Part shown: in pieces, positions 4,423-43,177 of the stretch | Position numbering within the stretch: the stretch's first letter is position 1 | Layout of the letters: each line of letters begins with the position of its first letter | Source of the DNA: Flavobacteriales bacterium | GTDB lineage: Bacteria > Bacteroidota > Bacteroidia > Flavobacteriales > Flavobacteriaceae | Assembly: GCA_027061855.1 (NCBI GenBank) | Contig: JAMOVT010000080.1 | Location: 1-64,000, forward strand | Reading direction: 5' to 3' | Length of the DNA: 64,000 nucleotides | Position numbers and translations under genes: made by a program | The notes under the pieces: model-generated | What the model was told of the DNA's origin: nothing | What the model saw: only the letters and a program-made list of their open reading frames with translations | The model's database searches: none

Positions 4423-5025
4423 ATGAAAAAGTTAGTATTATTATTTGCATTTGGATTATTTTCTATGAGTATGGCGGCTAAGGATTCGTTTAGACCTCAT
4501 TGGAAGTATTTAGATGAACCCGTAAAAATTACGGTACGCGGAATTGATTTCTTTATCTTTCCAAATGGAGAGTTTGATTTTAACGCACACCAAAGAAGAA
4601 ACAGACATCATTATGGTCATTCTCAAATGGGTGTTAGAATCGATAGAGATCGACATGGAAAAATCAGACGAATCGGAAATGTATTTATAAACTATAACCG
4701 TTATCGTCAAGTGACTCGAATCGGAAAAGTATTTATTAAATATAACTCACGTGGAAGAGTGGTTAAAATAGGAAAATTACGATTAAAATATAAGGGAAGA
4801 CGCTATGCCGTTATACGTCATCACAGACATCCCGGTTTATGGATTTCTTTTAATTATCGTACCGCTCCTGCATATGTATATGACGAACCCTACTATCATG
4901 ATTATAAATATGATAGAGATGAATGGAGCAATGATTATGATGAATATGCCGGCGGTGATTCCGATTACTATTTCAAAACCAGAAAGAACGACAAAAAAAT
5001 AAAGACAAAAGGTCGTCGCAAATAA
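4423..5025 (+). CDS. Secreted basic repeat protein, function unknown
   Basis: 200 residues with an N-terminal signal peptide (MKKLVLLFAFGLFSMSMAA). The mature part is rich in Arg, His, Lys and Tyr. Its core has about three diverged copies of an 18-20-residue beta-like unit: RIGNVFINYNRYRQVT, RIGKVFIKYNSRGRVV, KIGKLRLKYKGRRYAV. The C-terminal third is acidic and Tyr/Asp-rich (YYHDYKYDRDEW), then ends in a Lys/Arg tail. It has its own spacing from hemD (62 bases) and is closed by a strong terminator, so it is probably a single-gene unit. I do not recognise a named family beyond small secreted proteins of Bacteroidota. Confidence 0.75.
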   Translation: MKKLVLLFAFGLFSMSMAAKDSFRPHWKYLDEPVKITVRGIDFFIFPNGEFDFNAHQRRNRHHYGHSQMGVRIDRDRHGKIRRIGNVFINYNRYRQVTRIGKVFIKYNSRGRVVKIGKLRLKYKGRRYAVIRHHRHPGLWISFNYRTAPAYVYDEPYYHDYKYDRDEWSNDYDEYAGGDSDYYFKTRKNDKKIKTKGRRK

Positions 5026-5029
5026 AACC

Positions 5030-5059
5030 AAAAGCCCCGTTTTGCGGGGCTTTTTTTTT
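5030..5059 (+). terminator. Terminator between the secreted protein gene and icd
   Basis: AAAAGCCCCG-TTTTG-CGGGGC stem-loop followed by nine T residues on the plus strand. An A-run on the other side gives a shorter T-run on the minus strand, so it may also serve the convergent icd gene. Confidence 0.9.
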
Positions 5060-9867: not shown

Positions 9868-12800
9868 TTATTTAATAATTAGTTTGGAAACCATAATACC
9901 TTTATCAGTTTTTACATAAACAAAATAAATTCCTTTTGCAAGGTTTGAAATATTATAGTTTTTTTCCTTTATAAACATCCCTACCAAATTACCAAAAACA
10001 TCATAAATTTTAACATCTTTTATTCTATTTTCTGTTTGTATGTTAAAGCTTCCTTTCGTGGGGTTAGGATAAATAATAAAATTGGTAAAATTGTCCACCT
10101 CTTCAACGTCCAAAGCCTCACATTCTTCTTGGGTTTCTACAAATGTTGAAGTGGGATCAATAGAAGTCCAATTTGCTGTACTCCAAGCGGCATCATCTAC
10201 AAAAATACAAGTTAGGTTGGGATTTCTAACAGCAACAAATTCACTAATATTTGCATTATTTCCATTTCTTACATCTAAACTTGTTAATTGATTATCTTGA
10301 CAGTGCAATTTAGTTAAAGCTGTATTTGTCGAGAGATCCAAACCGGTTAATTGATTATCTACGCACCATAAAAAAGTTAAAGACGTATTTGCCGAAACAT
10401 CCAAATTTGTTAACTGATTATTGCCGCATGATAAATGAGTCAAAGCTGTATTTGCTGAAACATCCAAAGCGCTTAATTGATTAGAAGAGCAACTCAAACG
10501 CCTTAAAGCTGTATTGGCTGAAACATCCAAAGCGCTTAATTGATTAGAATAGCAACTCAAATGCCTTAAAGCTGTATTGGCTGAAACATCCAAACTTGTT
10601 AATTGGTTACCTGAACAATATAAAACAGTTAAAGCTGTATTTGCCGAAACATCCAAAGTGGTTAATTGATTAGAATAACAATACAATTCAGTTAAAGACG
10701 TATTTGCAGAGAAATCCAAACTTGTTAATTGATTTTGAGAGCACCCCAAATGCTTTAAAGCAGTAAAATCTTGAATGCCTGTTAAATCTTTTATGTTTTT
10801 ATTACTTATGCTTAATGAAATTACACCCTTGATATTTACGGTAGGAACGGTTCCGTCCGGGGTACCGGTGTCATACCCCAAATCAATAAGTGCTTGTTCA
10901 AAATTTGTATCGGGAATACTTGTTGTTGCTGTTTGTAAAGCCTCACATTCAGCTTGTGTTTCTACAAATGTTGAAGTGGGATCAATATGTGTCCATTTCG
11001 CTGTACTCCAGGAGGCATCATCTACAAAAATACAAGTTAGGTTGGGATTATTAGTGGCACCAAAATAAATTATATTTTCATTATTACCATTTCTCATATC
11101 CAAGCTTGTTAATTGATTATCATTGCAGGATAATTCAGTCAAAGCTGTATTTGACGAAACATCCAAAGCGGTTAACTGATTTTGATAACACAACAATTCG
11201 GTTAAAGACGTATTTGTTGAAACATCTAAACTTATTAACTGATTTTGATAGCATTGTAATTCAGTTAAAGACGTAATTGTTGAAACATCCAAAGAGGTTA
11301 ATTGATTTGAATAACACTGCAATTCAGTTAAAGACATATTTGCCGAAACATCCAAAGCGGTTAATTGATTTGAATTACACCATAATTTAATTAAAGACGT
11401 ATTTGGTGAAACATCCAAAGCGGTTAACTGATTACTATCGCAATATAAATGAGTTAAAGATGTATTTGCCGAAACATCCAAAGCGGTTAATTGATTATTG
11501 CCGCATGATAAATGAGTCAAAGATGTATTTGCCGAAACATCCAAACTTGTTAACTGATTTTTATAACAATACAATTCAGTTAAAGAAGCATTTGCCGAAA
11601 CATCCAAAGCGGTTAATTGATTATTGCCGCATGATAAATGAGTCAAAGCTGTATTTGCCGAAACATCCAAAGCGGTTAATTGATTATAAGAGCAACTCAA
11701 ATCCCTTAAAGCTGTATTTGACGAAACATCCAAACTTGTTAATTGATTTTCATAACAATACAATCCAGTTAAAGAAGCATTTGCCGAAACATCCAAAGCG
11801 GTTAATTTATTTTGAGAGCATTTCAATTTAGTTAAAGACGGATTTGCCGAAACATCCAAACTTGTTAACTGATTTTTATAACAATACAATCCAGTTAAAG
11901 AAGCATTTGCCGAGATATCTAAATTTGTCAATTGATTATTTCCGCAATATAAACGAGTCAAAGCTGTATTTGCCGAAACATCCAAAGCGGTTAATCGGTT
12001 AATTCCACAATATAATTCAGTTAGAGCTGTATTTGTTGAAATATCCAAATTGGTTAATTTGTTATAAGAACAAACCAAATTAGTTAAAGCGGTATTTGCC
12101 GAAACATCCAAATCGGTTAATTTATTTTGAGAGCAATTCAATTCAGTTAAAGATGTAAAATCTTGAATACCTGTTAAATCACTTATATTTTTATTAGGTA
12201 TAATTAATGAAATTACCCCCTTGATATTTGCAGTAGGAACGGTTCCGTCCGGGGTACCGGTGTCGTAACCCAAATCAATAAGTGCTTGTTCAAAATTTGC
12301 ATCTGGAATACTTGTTGTTTGCAAAGCCTCACATTCCGCTTGGGTTTCTACAAATGTTGAAGTGGAATCAATATTTGTCCAATGTGCAGTACTCCAAGCC
12401 GCATCATCTACAAAAATACATGTTAAATCGGGATTATTAGTGGTAACAAAATAAGTAATATTTGTATTATTTCCGTTTCTTACGTCCAAACTTGTTAATT
12501 GGTTACCGGAGCACCATAAAGTAGTTAAAGACGTATTTGCCGAGACATCCAAAGTTGTTAACTGATTTGAATAACACCGCAATTCAGACAAAGCAGTGTT
12601 TGCCGAAACATCCAAAGCGATTAATTGATTTTGATAGCATTGCAATTCAGATAAAGACGTATTTGCCGATATATCTAAACTTGTCAATTGATTATTTCCG
12701 CAATATAAACGAGTCAAAGCTGTATTTGCCGAAATATCCAAACCGGATAATTGGTTACCAGAACACCATAAAAAAGTTAAAGCTGTATTGGCTACATTCA

Positions 12801-13506
12801 AATTTGTTAATTGATTATTATAACAATACAAATTAGTCAACGCTGTATTAGCCGAGACATCCAAACCGGTTAATTGATTAGAATTACAACTCAATGTAGT
12901 TAAATTTGTATTGGCCAAAACATCTATGCTTGTTAATTGATTATCAGAACACCACAATTCGGTTAAAGACGTATTTGTTGAAACATCTATACCGGTTAAT
13001 TGATTGGAATTACAACTCAACTTAATTAAAGAGGTATTTGCTGAAACATCTAAACCGGTTAATTGATTATTAGAGCATTGCAATTCAGTTAAAGCAGTAT
13101 TGGCTGAAACGTCTAAACTAGTCAATTGATTATTAGAACACCATAACTCGGTTAAAGACGTATTTGTAGAAATATCCAAATTTGTTAATTGGTTATAAGA
13201 ACAATACAAACGAGTTAAAGCGGTATTTGCCGAGACATCCAAACTTGTTAATTGATTGTAATCACATTGCAATACAGTTAATGCTGTAAAATCTTGAATC
13301 CCGGTTAAATCACTAATATTTTTATAATTTAGGTTTAATGAAGTTACACTGCTAATATTTGCAGTAGGCACGGTTCCATCGGGTGAGCCTGTGTCGTAAC
13401 CCAAATCAATAAGTGCTTGTTCAAATTTAGTATCGGGAATACTTGTTGTTTGCGCAAATGAGTTGACACTAACAAGTAAAAAAAGAATAATTGTAATTTT
13501 TTTCAT
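9868..13506 (-). CDS. Large secreted leucine-rich-repeat protein with T9SS sorting domain
   Basis: 1212-residue cell-surface protein. An N-terminal signal peptide (MKKITIILFLLVSVNSFA) is followed by three homologous blocks starting near residues 21, 397 and 860. Each block opens with a head module (TSIPDxxFEQALIDLGYDTG), continues with a run of 21-residue LRRs of the pattern LTxLDVSANTALTxLYCxxNQ, and closes with TCIFVDDAxWSTAxWTxID and an ETQAECEAL tail. I count 13, 17 and 8 repeat units (38 in all); one unit in block 1 is two residues short. The C-terminal 75 residues (IIYPNPTKGSF ... GIYFVYVKTDKGIMVSKLIIK) are a type A type IX secretion signal. Probably a surface adhesin or binding protein, with the ligand unknown. 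It faces opposite to both neighbours and lies between 32-nt direct repeats. Confidence 0.93.
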   Translation of the reverse strand: MKKITIILFLLVSVNSFAQTTSIPDTKFEQALIDLGYDTGSPDGTVPTANISSVTSLNLNYKNISDLTGIQDFTALTVLQCDYNQLTSLDVSANTALTRLYCSYNQLTNLDISTNTSLTELWCSNNQLTSLDVSANTALTELQCSNNQLTGLDVSANTSLIKLSCNSNQLTGIDVSTNTSLTELWCSDNQLTSIDVLANTNLTTLSCNSNQLTGLDVSANTALTNLYCYNNQLTNLNVANTALTFLWCSGNQLSGLDISANTALTRLYCGNNQLTSLDISANTSLSELQCYQNQLIALDVSANTALSELRCYSNQLTTLDVSANTSLTTLWCSGNQLTSLDVRNGNNTNITYFVTTNNPDLTCIFVDDAAWSTAHWTNIDSTSTFVETQAECEALQTTSIPDANFEQALIDLGYDTGTPDGTVPTANIKGVISLIIPNKNISDLTGIQDFTSLTELNCSQNKLTDLDVSANTALTNLVCSYNKLTNLDISTNTALTELYCGINRLTALDVSANTALTRLYCGNNQLTNLDISANASLTGLYCYKNQLTSLDVSANPSLTKLKCSQNKLTALDVSANASLTGLYCYENQLTSLDVSSNTALRDLSCSYNQLTALDVSANTALTHLSCGNNQLTALDVSANASLTELYCYKNQLTSLDVSANTSLTHLSCGNNQLTALDVSANTSLTHLYCDSNQLTALDVSPNTSLIKLWCNSNQLTALDVSANMSLTELQCYSNQLTSLDVSTITSLTELQCYQNQLISLDVSTNTSLTELLCYQNQLTALDVSSNTALTELSCNDNQLTSLDMRNGNNENIIYFGATNNPNLTCIFVDDASWSTAKWTHIDPTSTFVETQAECEALQTATTSIPDTNFEQALIDLGYDTGTPDGTVPTVNIKGVISLSISNKNIKDLTGIQDFTALKHLGCSQNQLTSLDFSANTSLTELYCYSNQLTTLDVSANTALTVLYCSGNQLTSLDVSANTALRHLSCYSNQLSALDVSANTALRRLSCSSNQLSALDVSANTALTHLSCGNNQLTNLDVSANTSLTFLWCVDNQLTGLDLSTNTALTKLHCQDNQLTSLDVRNGNNANISEFVAVRNPNLTCIFVDDAAWSTANWTSIDPTSTFVETQEECEALDVEEVDNFTNFIIYPNPTKGSFNIQTENRIKDVKIYDVFGNLVGMFIKEKNYNISNLAKGIYFVYVKTDKGIMVSKLIIK
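9950..13450 (-). repeat. 63-bp tandem repeat array coding the LRR units
   Basis: Within the LRR gene the DNA repeats with a 63-base period (21 codons), about 38 units in three runs separated by the head and tail modules. Some neighbouring units are nearly identical at DNA level, which suggests recent slippage or unequal recombination and makes the copy number prone to vary or to be mis-assembled. Confidence 0.85.
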
Positions 13507-13702: not shown

Positions 13703-13710
13703 TATATTTG
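13703..13710 (+). promoter_or_regulatory. -7 element (TATATTTG) of the aromatic amino acid operon
   Basis: Match to TAnnTTTG. A transcript starting some 6-8 bases downstream would begin about 12 bases before the leader peptide ATG at 13729. The -33 region would fall in the AT-rich end of the 32-nt repeat and has no clear TTG. Confidence 0.55.
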
Positions 13711-13728
13711 TAGGCAGAAAGAAACATT

Positions 13729-13797
13729 ATGCAATTATTCAACACATATTTTAGCTTCTATTTTTACTTTTATTTTACAGTAAAAGAAAGGGCTTGA
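13729..13797 (+). CDS. Phe/Tyr-rich leader peptide of the aromatic operon (attenuator peptide)
   Basis: A 22-codon ORF, ATG to TGA, too short for ordinary gene callers. It begins MQLFNTYFSFYFYFYF and ends TVKERA. Six residues are Phe and four are Tyr; nine of the ten residues at positions 7-16 are aromatic, and there is no Trp. It lies just after the predicted promoter and just before competing hairpins and the pheA operon, exactly where an attenuation control peptide is expected. Ribosome stalling on UUU/UUC and UAU/UAC when charged tRNA-Phe or tRNA-Tyr runs low would be the sensor. Its product is unlikely to have any function of its own. The inference rests on composition, position and RNA pairing; translation has not been shown. 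Confidence 0.85.
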   Translation: MQLFNTYFSFYFYFYFTVKERA

Positions 13798-13837
13798 TAT
13801 GTGTAAACTTTAATCGATAAATTTTAATCTAAGCCCT
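13789..13837 (+). promoter_or_regulatory. Antiterminator pairing of the Phe/Tyr attenuator
   Basis: AGGGCTT at 13789-13795, which overlaps the last sense codons and the stop of the leader peptide, is a perfect 7-base complement of AAGCCCT at 13831-13837. AAGCCCT is also the 5' arm of the terminator hairpin, so the two structures exclude each other. A ribosome that finishes the peptide sits on AGGGCTT and leaves the terminator free to form. A ribosome stalled in the aromatic run leaves AGGGCTT free to pair and blocks the terminator. Confidence 0.75.
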
Positions 13838-13856
13838 GTTTTAACGGGGCTTTTTT
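13831..13856 (+). terminator. Attenuator terminator upstream of pheA
   Basis: AAGCCCTGTT / AACGGGGCTT hairpin, about 9-10 bp with one G-U pair and a very short loop, followed by six T residues. It ends 11 bases before the pheA ATG, between promoter and first structural gene, so it is a regulatory terminator and not the end of an upstream gene (the LRR gene is on the other strand). Confidence 0.85.
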
Positions 13857-13867
13857 AATATAAGTAT

Positions 13868-14683
13868 ATGAAAATAGGAATACAAGGTAGTGAAGGCTCC
13901 TTTCATTATGAAGTAGCCACTAAACTTTTCGGCAAAGAGAACGAATTTGTGGAATGTATGGATTTTAATGATATTCCCGCCTTGCTGAAATCCGGAGAGA
14001 TTGACAAAGGAATTATGGCTGTGGAAAATACCATCGCCGGAGCTATTCTGCCGAATTATTCATTGATAGATGAATATGATTTACATATTTGCGGAGAATA
14101 TTATTTACCCATCGAGCATCATTTAATGGCTCTGCCGGGACAAAAAATCGAAAATATACGTGAAGTATGGAGTCACCCCATGGCTTTGCTGCAATGCCGG
14201 AAATTTTTACGTAAGCATCCGCATATAAAAATAGTGGAAGAAAAAGATACGGCCGAGATGGCCAAGATTATCCAGCAAAAAAATCTCGATGGTATTGCCG
14301 CAATTGCCGGTTATGAGGCGGCCAAAATTTATGAATTGGAAATCATAGCCGAGAGCATCCAAACCAATAAAATAAATGCTACCAGATTTGTGGTTTTGGA
14401 CATGCATAATGGGAATTCCACTCAAAATTTTGATAAATCATCAATTCGTTTTAAACTTTCCCACCAACCGGGAAGCCTTTTGCAAATCTTACAAATTTTT
14501 AAAGATCACGGATTGAATATGAGTAAAATACAATCGGTTCCTATTATCAATAAACCTTGGGAATATGCCTTTTTTGCCGATTTATTAATCAAAGACAAAG
14601 AACAATACCAATTGGCGATGTATAAAGTGGCTCAACAAGCAGTGGAATTGAAAATTTTAGGAGAATATAAAAACGGAAAATAA
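13868..14683 (+). CDS. pheA: Prephenate dehydratase
   Basis: Converts prephenate to phenylpyruvate for Phe synthesis. 271 residues: a PDT domain (GSEGSFHYEVA, GIMAVENTIAGAI, the catalytic-region motif NATRFVVLD) and a C-terminal ACT domain from about residue 195 (RFKLSHQPGSLLQILQIFKDHGLN). No chorismate mutase is fused here; that activity is on the DAHP synthase in the same operon. The usual Phe-binding ESRP motif of the ACT domain reads QSVP, so allosteric behaviour may differ from the enterobacterial enzyme. First structural gene after the attenuator. Confidence 0.95.
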   Translation: MKIGIQGSEGSFHYEVATKLFGKENEFVECMDFNDIPALLKSGEIDKGIMAVENTIAGAILPNYSLIDEYDLHICGEYYLPIEHHLMALPGQKIENIREVWSHPMALLQCRKFLRKHPHIKIVEEKDTAEMAKIIQQKNLDGIAAIAGYEAAKIYELEIIAESIQTNKINATRFVVLDMHNGNSTQNFDKSSIRFKLSHQPGSLLQILQIFKDHGLNMSKIQSVPIINKPWEYAFFADLLIKDKEQYQLAMYKVAQQAVELKILGEYKNGK

Positions 14684-14684
14684 A

Positions 14685-15827
14685 ATGATTATAGAAGCGG
14701 AAAGAATACAATTTATAAGGGAATATTATTTTTCAAAAAAATTAAGAGAAATTTCAGAAATGATCCGGCAGGGATTGGATATTATCAATCTGGGAATTGG
14801 CAGTCCGGATTTACCGCCGGCCCAAGAGATAATTAGTACGCTGCAAGAAACGGCTTCCCTGACTACTTCTCATGGATATCAATCTTATAGAGGAACGGAT
14901 GAATTGCGACAAGCTTTTGCGCATTTTTATAAAAAATATTACAGGACTTCTCTAAATCCCAAAACACAAATTTTACCCTTAACAGGCTCAAAAGAAGGCA
15001 TTATGCATCTTTCCATGGCTTTTATTAATCCCGGAGATTCAGTCCTAATCCCCGATCCCGGGTATATGACCTATACATCAGCCACACTATTAGCCGGAGG
15101 AACTCCCGTTTATTACGATTTAACACCTGAAAATGAATATTTACCGGACTTTGATGAATTGGAAAAATTGGATTTGCAAAAAGCGAAAATTATGTGGGTA
15201 AACTATCCGCATATGCCCACCGGTGCCAAAGCAACCTCAGAGCTTTTTAGAAACTTGGCCGAATTTGGAAAAAAGCATAATATATTGATAGTGAATGACA
15301 ATCCATATAGTTTTATTTTGAATGAGAATCCGATGAGTTTATTAAGTTTTTCGACTGATTTTGAGTATATAATGGAACTCAACTCTTTGAGTAAATCGCA
15401 TAATATGGCCGGATGGAGAATCGGAATGCTGGCCGGAAAAAAAGATTATATCGATGCGGTAATGAAATTCAAAAGCAATATGGATAGCGGAATGTTTCTC
15501 GGTTTACAAAAAGCCGCGATAACAGCTTTGAATATGGATAAGCAGTGGTTTGACCAACAAAACAAAATTTACAAGGAAAGAAAAACCATTGCAATTAAAA
15601 TATATAATAAATTGAAAATAAGATATAATCCGGAGCAAAACGGTATGTTTTTATGGGGAAAATTACCCGGTGGAATAACTTCGGAAGTATTTACAGATAA
15701 ATTATTAAAAGAAAAAAATATTTTTCTGGCTCCCGGATTTATTTTTGGTAAAAACGGAAAAGAATATGTGCGTTTGAGTTTGACAAATAGCACCGAAGAT
15801 TTAACAAAAGCACTTAATAGATTATAA
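14685..15827 (+). CDS. Class I/II PLP aminotransferase (aromatic amino acid operon)
   Basis: PLP enzyme of 380 residues, aspartate aminotransferase fold type I. Visible motifs are NLGIGSPDLPP near the N-terminus, PLTGSKEGIMHL, the VNDNPYSFIL substrate and cofactor region, and the PLP-lysine motif SLSKSHNMAGWRIG. Its position between pheA and tyrA suggests it transaminates phenylpyruvate, hydroxyphenylpyruvate or prephenate to finish Phe and Tyr synthesis. The exact substrate cannot be read from sequence. It starts one base after the pheA stop. Confidence 0.88.
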   Translation: MIIEAERIQFIREYYFSKKLREISEMIRQGLDIINLGIGSPDLPPAQEIISTLQETASLTTSHGYQSYRGTDELRQAFAHFYKKYYRTSLNPKTQILPLTGSKEGIMHLSMAFINPGDSVLIPDPGYMTYTSATLLAGGTPVYYDLTPENEYLPDFDELEKLDLQKAKIMWVNYPHMPTGAKATSELFRNLAEFGKKHNILIVNDNPYSFILNENPMSLLSFSTDFEYIMELNSLSKSHNMAGWRIGMLAGKKDYIDAVMKFKSNMDSGMFLGLQKAAITALNMDKQWFDQQNKIYKERKTIAIKIYNKLKIRYNPEQNGMFLWGKLPGGITSEVFTDKLLKEKNIFLAPGFIFGKNGKEYVRLSLTNSTEDLTKALNRL

Positions 15828-15831
15828 GATT

Positions 15832-16677
15832 ATGAAAGTAGGAATTATCGGATTGGGATTGATAGGCGGCTCCTTTGCTTTAAGCCTGAAAAAGAAAGAA
15901 GGATATAAAATATATGGCAGTGATAAATATCATTATGACCTAGCAATATCCCTTGGATTAATAGATGAAAAACTGACGGATGCTAATCTTTCTCAAATGG
16001 ATATAGTTCTCATTGCCACTCCTGTCGATACGATTGGGAAAATAGGAAATGATATTTTGGATAAAATTTCTGCCGATACCTTAGTAATGGATGCAGGATC
16101 CATAAAGCACAAAATAGCCCGGGAAATTTCCAAGCATCCCCGAAGAAAAAACTTCCTTCTCTCCCACCCCATTGCAGGAACGGAATACTCAGGTCCCGAA
16201 GCGGCATTTTCCAATTTATTCGCCCACAAAATAAATATCTTTTGTGATGTAGATGATACAGATCCTGATCTCTTAAAAAGCGGATATAAAATAATGAAAC
16301 TTTTACAAATGAAAACCATTGAAATGGATAGTTATGAACACGACCGGCATATTGCTTATGTCTCTCATCTATCTCATATCAGTTCATTTATGCTTGGAAA
16401 AACCGTGATGGACTTGGAAAAAGACGAAAAAAATATTTTTGATATGGCAGGAAGCGGATTTGCATCCACCGTTCGGTTGGCCAAAAGTTCTCCCGATACC
16501 TGGACACCCATTTTTATGGAAAACAAAGAAAATATTTTGCAATCCTTGAATGAATATATCCAAAATCTGGACTATTTAAGAAAAAATTTGGAAGAGGATA
16601 ATTCAGAAGCCATTTATAAGCAATTAAAAAAAATAAATCATATAAAAACAATCATAGATAAATTGGAAAAATCATGA
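15832..16677 (+). CDS. tyrA: Prephenate dehydrogenase
   Basis: Oxidative decarboxylation of prephenate to 4-hydroxyphenylpyruvate for Tyr. 281 residues: Rossmann nucleotide site GIIGLGLIGGSFAL, then SHPIAGTEYSGPEAAF and the HIAYVSHLSHISSF helix with the conserved histidines. No fused chorismate mutase or ACT domain. It starts 4 bases after the aminotransferase stop, and its end overlaps the next gene by 4 bases (ATGA), a translational coupling arrangement. Confidence 0.94.
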   Translation: MKVGIIGLGLIGGSFALSLKKKEGYKIYGSDKYHYDLAISLGLIDEKLTDANLSQMDIVLIATPVDTIGKIGNDILDKISADTLVMDAGSIKHKIAREISKHPRRKNFLLSHPIAGTEYSGPEAAFSNLFAHKINIFCDVDDTDPDLLKSGYKIMKLLQMKTIEMDSYEHDRHIAYVSHLSHISSFMLGKTVMDLEKDEKNIFDMAGSGFASTVRLAKSSPDTWTPIFMENKENILQSLNEYIQNLDYLRKNLEEDNSEAIYKQLKKINHIKTIIDKLEKS

Positions 16678-17756
16678 ATACGGAAAAACATTTGGGAAAT
16701 TGGATAAAAGAAGTAGCGGGTGAATATCCATTGATGATCGCAGGCCCGTGCAGCGCCGAAACAGAAGAACAGGTCTTGGCAACGGCTCGTGAGATGAAAG
16801 ACAAACGCATACAAGTTTATCGTGCAGGGGTCTGGAAACCCCGCACGCGTCCCGGAAATTTTGAAGGACACGGAAAAAAAGCCTTGCCATGGCTCAAAAA
16901 AGTGAAAGAAGAAACCGGTATGAAAATCGCTATTGAAATTGCTAATGCCGAGCATGCTGCACTGGCTATGGAATATGATGTAGATATTTTATGGATTGGG
17001 GCACGAACAAGTGTAAATCCTTTTGCCGTTCAAGAAATTGCCGAAGCCATAAAGGGAACGGACAAAATTATTTTGATCAAAAACCCCATTAATCCCGACC
17101 TTGCTTTATGGATTGGTGCTGTGGAACGTTTTTATAAAATGGGAATAAAAAAATTAGGAGTTATTCACCGGGGATTTTCCAGTTTTCGTCCGGGAAATTA
17201 CCGGAATGATCCCCAATGGCAATTGGCTTTGGACTTTAAAACAAAATATCCAAATATTCCGATGATCATCGATCCTTCTCATATTTGCGGACGCAGGGAC
17301 TGCATACAGGATATGGCACAAAAAGCCTTGGATCTGAAATATGAAGGATTTATGATTGAAACACATATCAATCCCGATGAAGCTTGGAGCGATGCAAAAC
17401 AACAAGTTACTCCTGCCAGATTAACAGAAATCATTACTGCTTTATGTTTGAGAAAACAACAGTTTCAAGATCCGGTAGTCGTGGATCAAATTAATTTTTA
17501 CCGTAGTCAAATCGATGAGTTGGATAATGAATTATTGGAACTTTTATCCGAACGGATGAATTTGGCACAAAAAATCGGAGAGTTGAAAAAAGAAAAAAAT
17601 GTAGCTGTGCTTCAACGAAATCGTTGGGCCGAAATAATGGAAAAAGCCAAACAAAAAGGTGTATCCTTAGGTCTAAGTGAAAAATTTATCAACCGGATAT
17701 TTAATTCCATTCATCAGGAAAGTATTGATAATCAAGAGAAAATTCTTAATAGATAA
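16674..17756 (+). CDS. Bifunctional DAHP synthase / chorismate mutase
   Basis: Catalyses the first step of the shikimate pathway and the first Phe/Tyr-specific step. Residues 1 to about 265 are a type I-beta DAHP synthase related to KDO8P synthase (MIAGPCSAETEEQVLATA, YRAGVWKPRTRPGNFEG, MIIDPSHICGRRD). Residues about 270-360 are an AroQ-type chorismate mutase (RSQIDELDNELLELLSERM, then the KIGELKKEKN helix). This fusion is common in Bacteroidota, where the mutase can act as a prephenate-sensing regulatory domain. Last gene of the attenuated operon; no clear terminator follows. Confidence 0.94.
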   Translation: MNTEKHLGNWIKEVAGEYPLMIAGPCSAETEEQVLATAREMKDKRIQVYRAGVWKPRTRPGNFEGHGKKALPWLKKVKEETGMKIAIEIANAEHAALAMEYDVDILWIGARTSVNPFAVQEIAEAIKGTDKIILIKNPINPDLALWIGAVERFYKMGIKKLGVIHRGFSSFRPGNYRNDPQWQLALDFKTKYPNIPMIIDPSHICGRRDCIQDMAQKALDLKYEGFMIETHINPDEAWSDAKQQVTPARLTEIITALCLRKQQFQDPVVVDQINFYRSQIDELDNELLELLSERMNLAQKIGELKKEKNVAVLQRNRWAEIMEKAKQKGVSLGLSEKFINRIFNSIHQESIDNQEKILNR

Positions 17757-42784: not shown

Positions 42785-42818
42785 ATAAAAAAATCCCGGC
42801 AGAAAACAACCGGGATTT
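42785..42818 (-). terminator. Terminator after the DUF2853 gene
   Basis: A 9-bp perfect stem (AAATCCCGG / CCGGGATTT) with a 10-base loop, followed on the minus strand by a T-run. It lies 23 bases past the DUF2853 stop and upstream of the tig promoter. Confidence 0.88.
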
Positions 42819-42841
42819 ATGTAAAAAATATGTTCGATCAA

Positions 42842-43177
42842 TTATGCAAAAACTGATTCCTTGTTTAATTCTTTTACTAAGAAATAATAAAAAGCTACAC
42901 GCATTTTTTGTCTTACAGGCTTGAACTTTGTACAAGCAGTTTCCAAAACCTTATCAATCGTTTTTTTGTCTGTTACTCCTAATTTTTTTACGATAAAGTT
43001 ATCTTCCACTCTCTTCAATTCCGCTTCATCTCCGCAAGATACCAAAGAAGCATCTTTCAAGTAGATAGAAGGTCCCTGAGATTTGGCTACTTTTCTTAGT
43101 AAATCTTCATCGGCTTTGATGCCTAGGTCTTTTAATTGTGCAGCAGCTTTTGCTACTACTTCGTCAAATTTGCTCAT
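42842..43177 (-). CDS. DUF2853 family protein
   Basis: 111 residues, soluble and helical, beginning MSKFDEVVAKAAAQLKDLG. The stretches LRKVAKSQGPSIYLKDASLV and ELKRVEDNFIVKKLGV match the DUF2853 family as I know it; no biochemical function is established. It has its own good promoter and its own terminator, so it is expressed as a single gene. Confidence 0.85.
   Translation of the reverse strand: MSKFDEVVAKAAAQLKDLGIKADEDLLRKVAKSQGPSIYLKDASLVSCGDEAELKRVEDNFIVKKLGVTDKKTIDKVLETACTKFKPVRQKMRVAFYYFLVKELNKESVFA

Follow-up and report, generated by a model that had tools for sequence, protein, structure and literature searches.

A predicted leader-peptide attenuator with phenylalanine and tyrosine codons in front of the pheA operon of Flavobacteriaceae

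Introduction

The enterobacterial pheA leader (pheL) encodes a Phe-rich peptide, followed by alternative 2:3 and 3:4 helices and a terminator before pheA. The trp and his leaders (Trp_leader, RF00513; His_leader, RF00514) obey the logic of three helices, 1:2, 2:3 and 3:4, with the control codons placed just before region 2. In the ilvGMEDA and thr leaders of enterobacteria, a single leader reads several of the amino acids that its operon produces.

For Bacteroidota, descriptions of such switches are scarce. In 2010, attenuation by leader peptides was stated to be known just in Proteobacteria and Actinobacteria, plus the Firmicutes case of that same study (PMC2965389). A map of the Bacteroides thetaiotaomicron transcriptome mentions leader-peptide-like small ORFs in general terms alone (PMC7366714). 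The accessible text of a 2021 transcriptome of Flavobacterium psychrophilum reports that a structured 5′ element lies ahead of pheA, that other Flavobacteriaceae genera share it and that Rfam has no match for it; the authors see strong indications of leader-peptide attenuation ahead of operons for amino acids (PMC9723704). Our literature search, with subscription papers and supplements outside its scope, found no description of the peptide, helices or specificity of this element.

Here we analyse the window, a 64,000-nt stretch of a Flavobacteriales bacterium genome (contig JAMOVT010000080.1), together with related loci. We conclude with high confidence that a ribosome-mediated transcription attenuator controls its pheA-aminotransferase-tyrA-DAHPS/CM operon through the charging of tRNA-Phe and tRNA-Tyr.

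Results

The operon and its surroundings

The operon consists of four genes:

13868-14683, + strand: pheA, prephenate dehydratase (PDT domain; Pfam PF00800, E 1.1e-56)
14685-15827, + strand: class I/II aminotransferase (PF00155, E 5.1e-62)
15832-16677, + strand: tyrA, prephenate dehydrogenase (NF006307, above the curated cut-off)
16674-17756, + strand: fusion of DAHP synthase and type II chorismate mutase (PF00793 and PF01817)

The ACT match of the pheA product lies slightly under the cut-off. On the other side, the nearest gene (9868-13506, − strand) is divergent from the operon, so a terminator found between them, at 13831-13856, cannot serve an upstream gene. The divergent gene encodes a 1212-aa leucine-rich-repeat-like protein, apparently secreted as judged by eye. 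Directly 3′ of the operon lies a deoxynucleoside kinase gene (PF01712; 17909-18523, + strand). The same genome holds a second DAHP synthase/chorismate mutase fusion on contig C12 (L132), without a leader and, by eye, directly behind a carbamate-kinase-like gene.

Leader ORF and promoter

Two elements lie at the start of the leader:

13703-13710, + strand: −7 promoter element TATATTTG, of the Bacteroidota type TAnnTTTG, read from the sequence
13729-13797, + strand: leader peptide ORF MQLFNTYFSFYFYFYFTVKERA with its stop codon, ATG start, 22 codons, read from the sequence and from the loci of relatives

The ORF contains six Phe, four Tyr and no Trp codons. Its residues 7-16, YFSFYFYFYF, are aromatic in nine of ten positions. 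When the 300 nt upstream of pheA were dinucleotide-shuffled 2000 times, no such run arose. A bare run of seven TTY/TAY codons was rejected as evidence by itself: across this AT-rich genome such runs occur 25 times, against 21 for a reversed-pattern control, with no clear enrichment. As these runs are not rare, the case rests on the combination of features and on their conservation among relatives.

Of 121 relatives, 113 have a relaxed promoter motif, TAnnTTnG, at a distance of 12-40 nt ahead of the leader ATG (8.6 expected from shuffles), and just 24 have the strict TAnnTTTG.

Three mutually exclusive helices

The ORF is followed by three helices that exclude one another: a 1:2 hairpin, a 2:3 antiterminator and a 3:4 intrinsic terminator. 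Their parts are:

13742-13804, + strand: 1:2 (anti-antiterminator/pause) hairpin, arms 13742-13750/13796-13804 and 13753-13757/13790-13794
13789-13795, + strand: region 2, AGGGCTT, 5′ strand of the antiterminator, overlapping the leader stop codon
13831-13837, + strand: region 3, AAGCCCT, 3′ strand of the antiterminator and 5′ arm of the terminator
13831-13856, + strand: 3:4 hairpin, an intrinsic terminator with a 9-bp stem at 13831-13852 (−12.8 kcal/mol)

AAGCCCT starts 35 nt past the end of AGGGCTT. The terminator ends in TTTTTT (13851-13856) and 11 nt separate it from pheA, which starts 12 nt past the last T. The whole leader (13715-13867) has a folding z of −3.8, more stable than 200 of 200 shuffles. 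The 1:2 hairpin, with a minimum free energy of −17.1 kcal/mol and a folding z of −4.6, was revealed by the fold and is new with respect to the first-pass annotation. That annotation had already given the TATATTTG element, the 22-codon ORF with its codon counts and aromatic stretch, the AGGGCTT/AAGCCCT pair and the six-T terminator, all of which the sequence bears out base by base at the positions given.

If the transcript stops at 13841 and region 1 cannot take part, the 2:3 helix forms in the fold, at −11.4 kcal/mol. Folding with and without a masked ribosome site, proposed earlier as a check, turned out to be uninformative: the full-length equilibrium fold contains the terminator whatever is masked, and the outer 1:2 stem too. 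Antitermination must hence be co-transcriptional, that is kinetic, as in the classical trp and his leaders.

Conservation in Flavobacteriaceae

We sampled 150 genomes of the family, one per genus; PheA occurs in 131 and 130 pheA loci were read. The aminotransferase lies downstream of pheA in 120 of these 130. Leaders were scanned as ATG-initiated ORFs with at least 6 aromatics in 10 residues, at most 300 nt upstream of pheA, which could be tested at 129 loci. Such an ORF is present in 124 of the 129, and in 121 it is followed by a terminator. The ORF by itself appeared in 9 of 516 shuffles and 3 of 129 reverse strands, ORF and terminator together in 0 of 516 and in none, respectively; the shuffles do not fully correct for the relatedness of the loci. 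The short aromatic-rich ORFs that the first-pass annotation expected upstream of pheA in relatives are thus there.

We also built a covariance model from 51 leaders. Of 73 family loci outside its training set, 72 matched it at E<1e-3, and the single unmatched locus (L120) had already yielded a leader in the search by ORF and terminator. Within the genome of the window, the one match of the model at that threshold is the window site; weaker hits at 42785-42914 (− strand) and 4931-5059 (+ strand) of the window were set aside as plain gene-end terminators. The wider scan left six loci leaderless. At L086 the contig breaks off, yet the leader is visible; for L002 and L114 the model located the leader at a greater upstream distance, and it recovered a partial one in L043. 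The nearest relative, L002, was thereby rejected as a leaderless case. By scan, model and inspection together, the element precedes 128 of the 130 family pheA loci and is missing in L030 and L123 only.

In L002 (460-1500), from the closest genus, the space between terminator and pheA holds a transposase-like ORF, by eye of the REP-associated type, and repeated AGACCTGTTAGGTTT palindromes. The relatives L216 and L219 have the palindromes alone in that place.

Covariation and spacing

The three helices carry compensatory changes, as anticipated for the stems by the first-pass annotation. Across 51 genera, 98.3% of the cells of the 3:4 helix are paired and 7 of its 9 pairs have changed in both bases; a shift of the partner by one position lowers pairing to 55%. 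For the 2:3 helix, per-column counts in the 51-genus MAFFT alignment were dropped, since region 2 is off by one base between the GAGACT and GGGACT groups; its covariation was therefore judged on close relatives and by partner swapping. In the window and nine relatives, 97% of its cells are paired with three pairs changed on both sides, and pairing collapses to 65% or less when the strands are slid by 1-3 nt. The 1:2 helix has six doubly changed pairs among 10 close relatives. Over 121 leaders, own partners pair better than swapped ones, both for 2:3 (−11.7 against −8.8 kcal/mol, z −14) and for 1:2 (−14.3 against −10.3 kcal/mol, z −16), shared ancestry not being removed from either score.

One set of positions links all four arms. 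Its members are 13755 (arm 1), 13792 (region 2), 13834 (region 3) and 13849 (region 4); the window has C-G-C-G at them, most of the sister genus T-A-T-A (U-A-U-A in RNA). This concerted change in the window's lineage keeps all three alternative helices; at 13755 it is synonymous (Ser, AGC/AGT) with respect to most sisters.

The distance from the last aromatic codon to the first paired base of region 2 is 7-11 nt in 102 of 121 leaders, with a mode of 10. With the last aromatic codon in the A site, a ribosome is expected to have its leading edge at this place, and the spacing matches that of a stalled ribosome. From the leader stop codon to the terminator there are mostly 20-26 nt across genomes and 33 in the window.

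The marks of ribosome-mediated attenuators are found together at this locus: a short ORF before a biosynthetic operon, rich in codons for its products; an intrinsic terminator between that ORF and the first gene; a mutually exclusive antiterminator with compensatory changes; a 1:2 pause/anti-antiterminator hairpin; and control codons whose distance from region 2 fits a ribosome footprint.

Amino-acid specificity

Every one of the 121 leaders includes both Phe and Tyr codons, and 81 include Trp codons as well. The final aromatic codon codes for Phe in 101 leaders, for Tyr in 19 and for Trp in 1. This dominance of Phe, which extends over the last three positions, would suit the same attenuator acting effectively as a sensor of Phe alone, with the Tyr codons as tolerated neighbours, and TTY codons are cheap in AT-rich DNA. 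Such a restriction is nevertheless unlikely in view of the universal presence of Tyr, which stands at position −3 in 87 of 121 leaders, and of a distant genome (L172, 321-737) whose operon, pheA-aminotransferase-DAHPS, is without tyrA. There, three tandem attenuators precede a single operon, and their Phe leaders have no Tyr in the aromatic runs. The L172 pheA product, 185 aa long, stops short of the part that gives the ACT match in the window's PheA. Eleven family leaders with no tyrA within about 4 kb downstream still contain Tyr codons, so codon choice tracks gene content imperfectly.

The window's genome has a second attenuator, with a WWW leader MTLFNAWWWFKTNSITG and an intrinsic terminator just before trpE:

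L222, 1334-1441 (contig C104): trpE attenuator MTLFNAWWWFKTNSITG, three tandem Trp codons

The first-pass annotation had read the lack of Trp codons at the pheA site as fitting an operon that makes Phe and Tyr. The lack is confirmed, but it is not explained so simply: two thirds of the relatives have Trp codons, and trpE has a leader of its own here. No His leader was found in this genome (95% complete); consistently, it gave no HisG match either.

Proposed mechanism

Under the joint Phe and Tyr reading, transcription would start a short way past TATATTTG, and ribosomes would translate the leader behind the RNA polymerase. With ample charged tRNA, the ribosome would reach the stop codon at 13795 and cover region 2, or 1:2 would form after its release. 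Region 2 being covered or held in 1:2, 3:4 would form and transcription would end shortly ahead of pheA. Under a shortage of Phe or Tyr, the ribosome is predicted to stall in codons 7-16 and block the 5′ arm of 1:2. Its leading edge would then lie just short of 13789, leaving region 2 free to form 2:3 before region 4 is made, so that the operon is transcribed. The classical ribosome-mediated attenuation of the first-pass annotation is supported by the aromatic ORFs of relatives and the compensatory changes in the stems.

Being short, strongly hydrophobic and aromatic, the leader could also be imagined as a TnaC-like arrest peptide, whose nascent chain senses the free amino acids Phe or Tyr and not the charging of tRNA. 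We hold this to be very improbable: at most positions F, Y and W replace one another, the length varies from 18 to 29 aa across relatives, and it is the class of codon and its distance to region 2 that stay constant, not the peptide sequence.

A terminator and an antiterminator alone would fit a ribosome-independent element as well, be it a riboswitch, a T-box or a protein-bound attenuator, with an incidental ORF. This is more improbable still, as 124 of 129 loci keep the ORF in frame and aromatic, and it ends at or beyond region 2 with ribosome-scale spacing kept. Moreover, no Rfam leader family (Phe, Trp, His) and no T-box matches the window or 14 related loci, which bears out the earlier reading that no T-box is present.

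An ordinary terminator next to a chance ORF, conceivable because seven-aromatic runs arise by chance in an AT-rich genome and the weak model hits elsewhere in the window are gene-end terminators, is refuted by conservation, covariation and shuffles, and no upstream gene points toward pheA.

Range beyond the family

In other families of the same taxonomic order, leaders occur in f2 (3/3), f3 (1/1), f9 (3/3), f13 (1/1) and f15 (4/5) and are absent from f12 (0/1), f5 (0/8) and f16 (0/13). The pheA of f5 is divergent and lacks its operon partners. Family f16 consists of reduced, 0.6-Mb genomes that keep pheA-aminotransferase-tyrA, and the attenuator is missing from 13 of 13 such genomes:

L149, L150, L152-L155, L157-L161, L166, L180: f16 loci without the attenuator

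Such a loss may be what is expected of reduced symbionts that overproduce for a host. Elsewhere in the class, the element extending to further orders, leaders are found in f17, f21, f28, f30 (1/3), f31, f46, f47, f50, f55 and f71, and the class-level survey found none in f27, f38, f39 and f69. By sequence, near-identical switches appear to precede the pheA operon in most sampled Bacteroidota. The joint Phe and Tyr architecture, first taken to be unusual, is instead the norm for the family and frequent across the class.

Discussion

On this evidence, leader-peptide attenuation occurs widely in Bacteroidota and probably arose early there, a whole aromatic operon being placed under combined Phe/Tyr(/Trp) codons. 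We give an even chance to an ancestral Bacteroidota attenuator that integrated the charging of tRNA-Phe, tRNA-Tyr and, for the majority of lineages, tRNA-Trp in a single leader, Trp having moved to a trpE leader in some lineages. If so, ribosomes follow RNA polymerase closely enough for attenuation without Shine-Dalgarno initiation, in a phylum that lacks Shine-Dalgarno sequences (PMC6847099). The coupling of transcription and translation in Bacteroidota becomes testable with a simple reporter, and an RNA family of about 130 nt is ready for Rfam, which has none.

The mechanism is ordinary ribosome-mediated attenuation; what we describe is a new RNA family within it. The novelty lies in a family without an Rfam match, in its Phe+Tyr(+Trp) codons and in its spread in Bacteroidota. 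Judging from the accessible text, the Flavobacterium psychrophilum pheA element (PMC9723704) very probably belongs to the same family; the peptide, helices, specificity, spacing and wider range given here are not in that text.

With pheL, the window element shares a Phe-rich leader peptide, the 2:3/3:4 alternatives and a terminator before pheA. It differs in belonging to another phylum, in lacking an Rfam match and in the mixed Phe and Tyr, often also Trp, codons of its family. Whereas pheL governs pheA alone, the window element would control a four-gene operon with both the Phe and Tyr branches plus DAHP synthase. The trp and his leaders follow the same 1:2, 2:3, 3:4 logic but read a single amino acid, and their models find no match here. 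In reading several amino acids the element resembles the ilvGMEDA and thr leaders, except that theirs are branched-chain and Thr/Ile codons and here they are aromatic.
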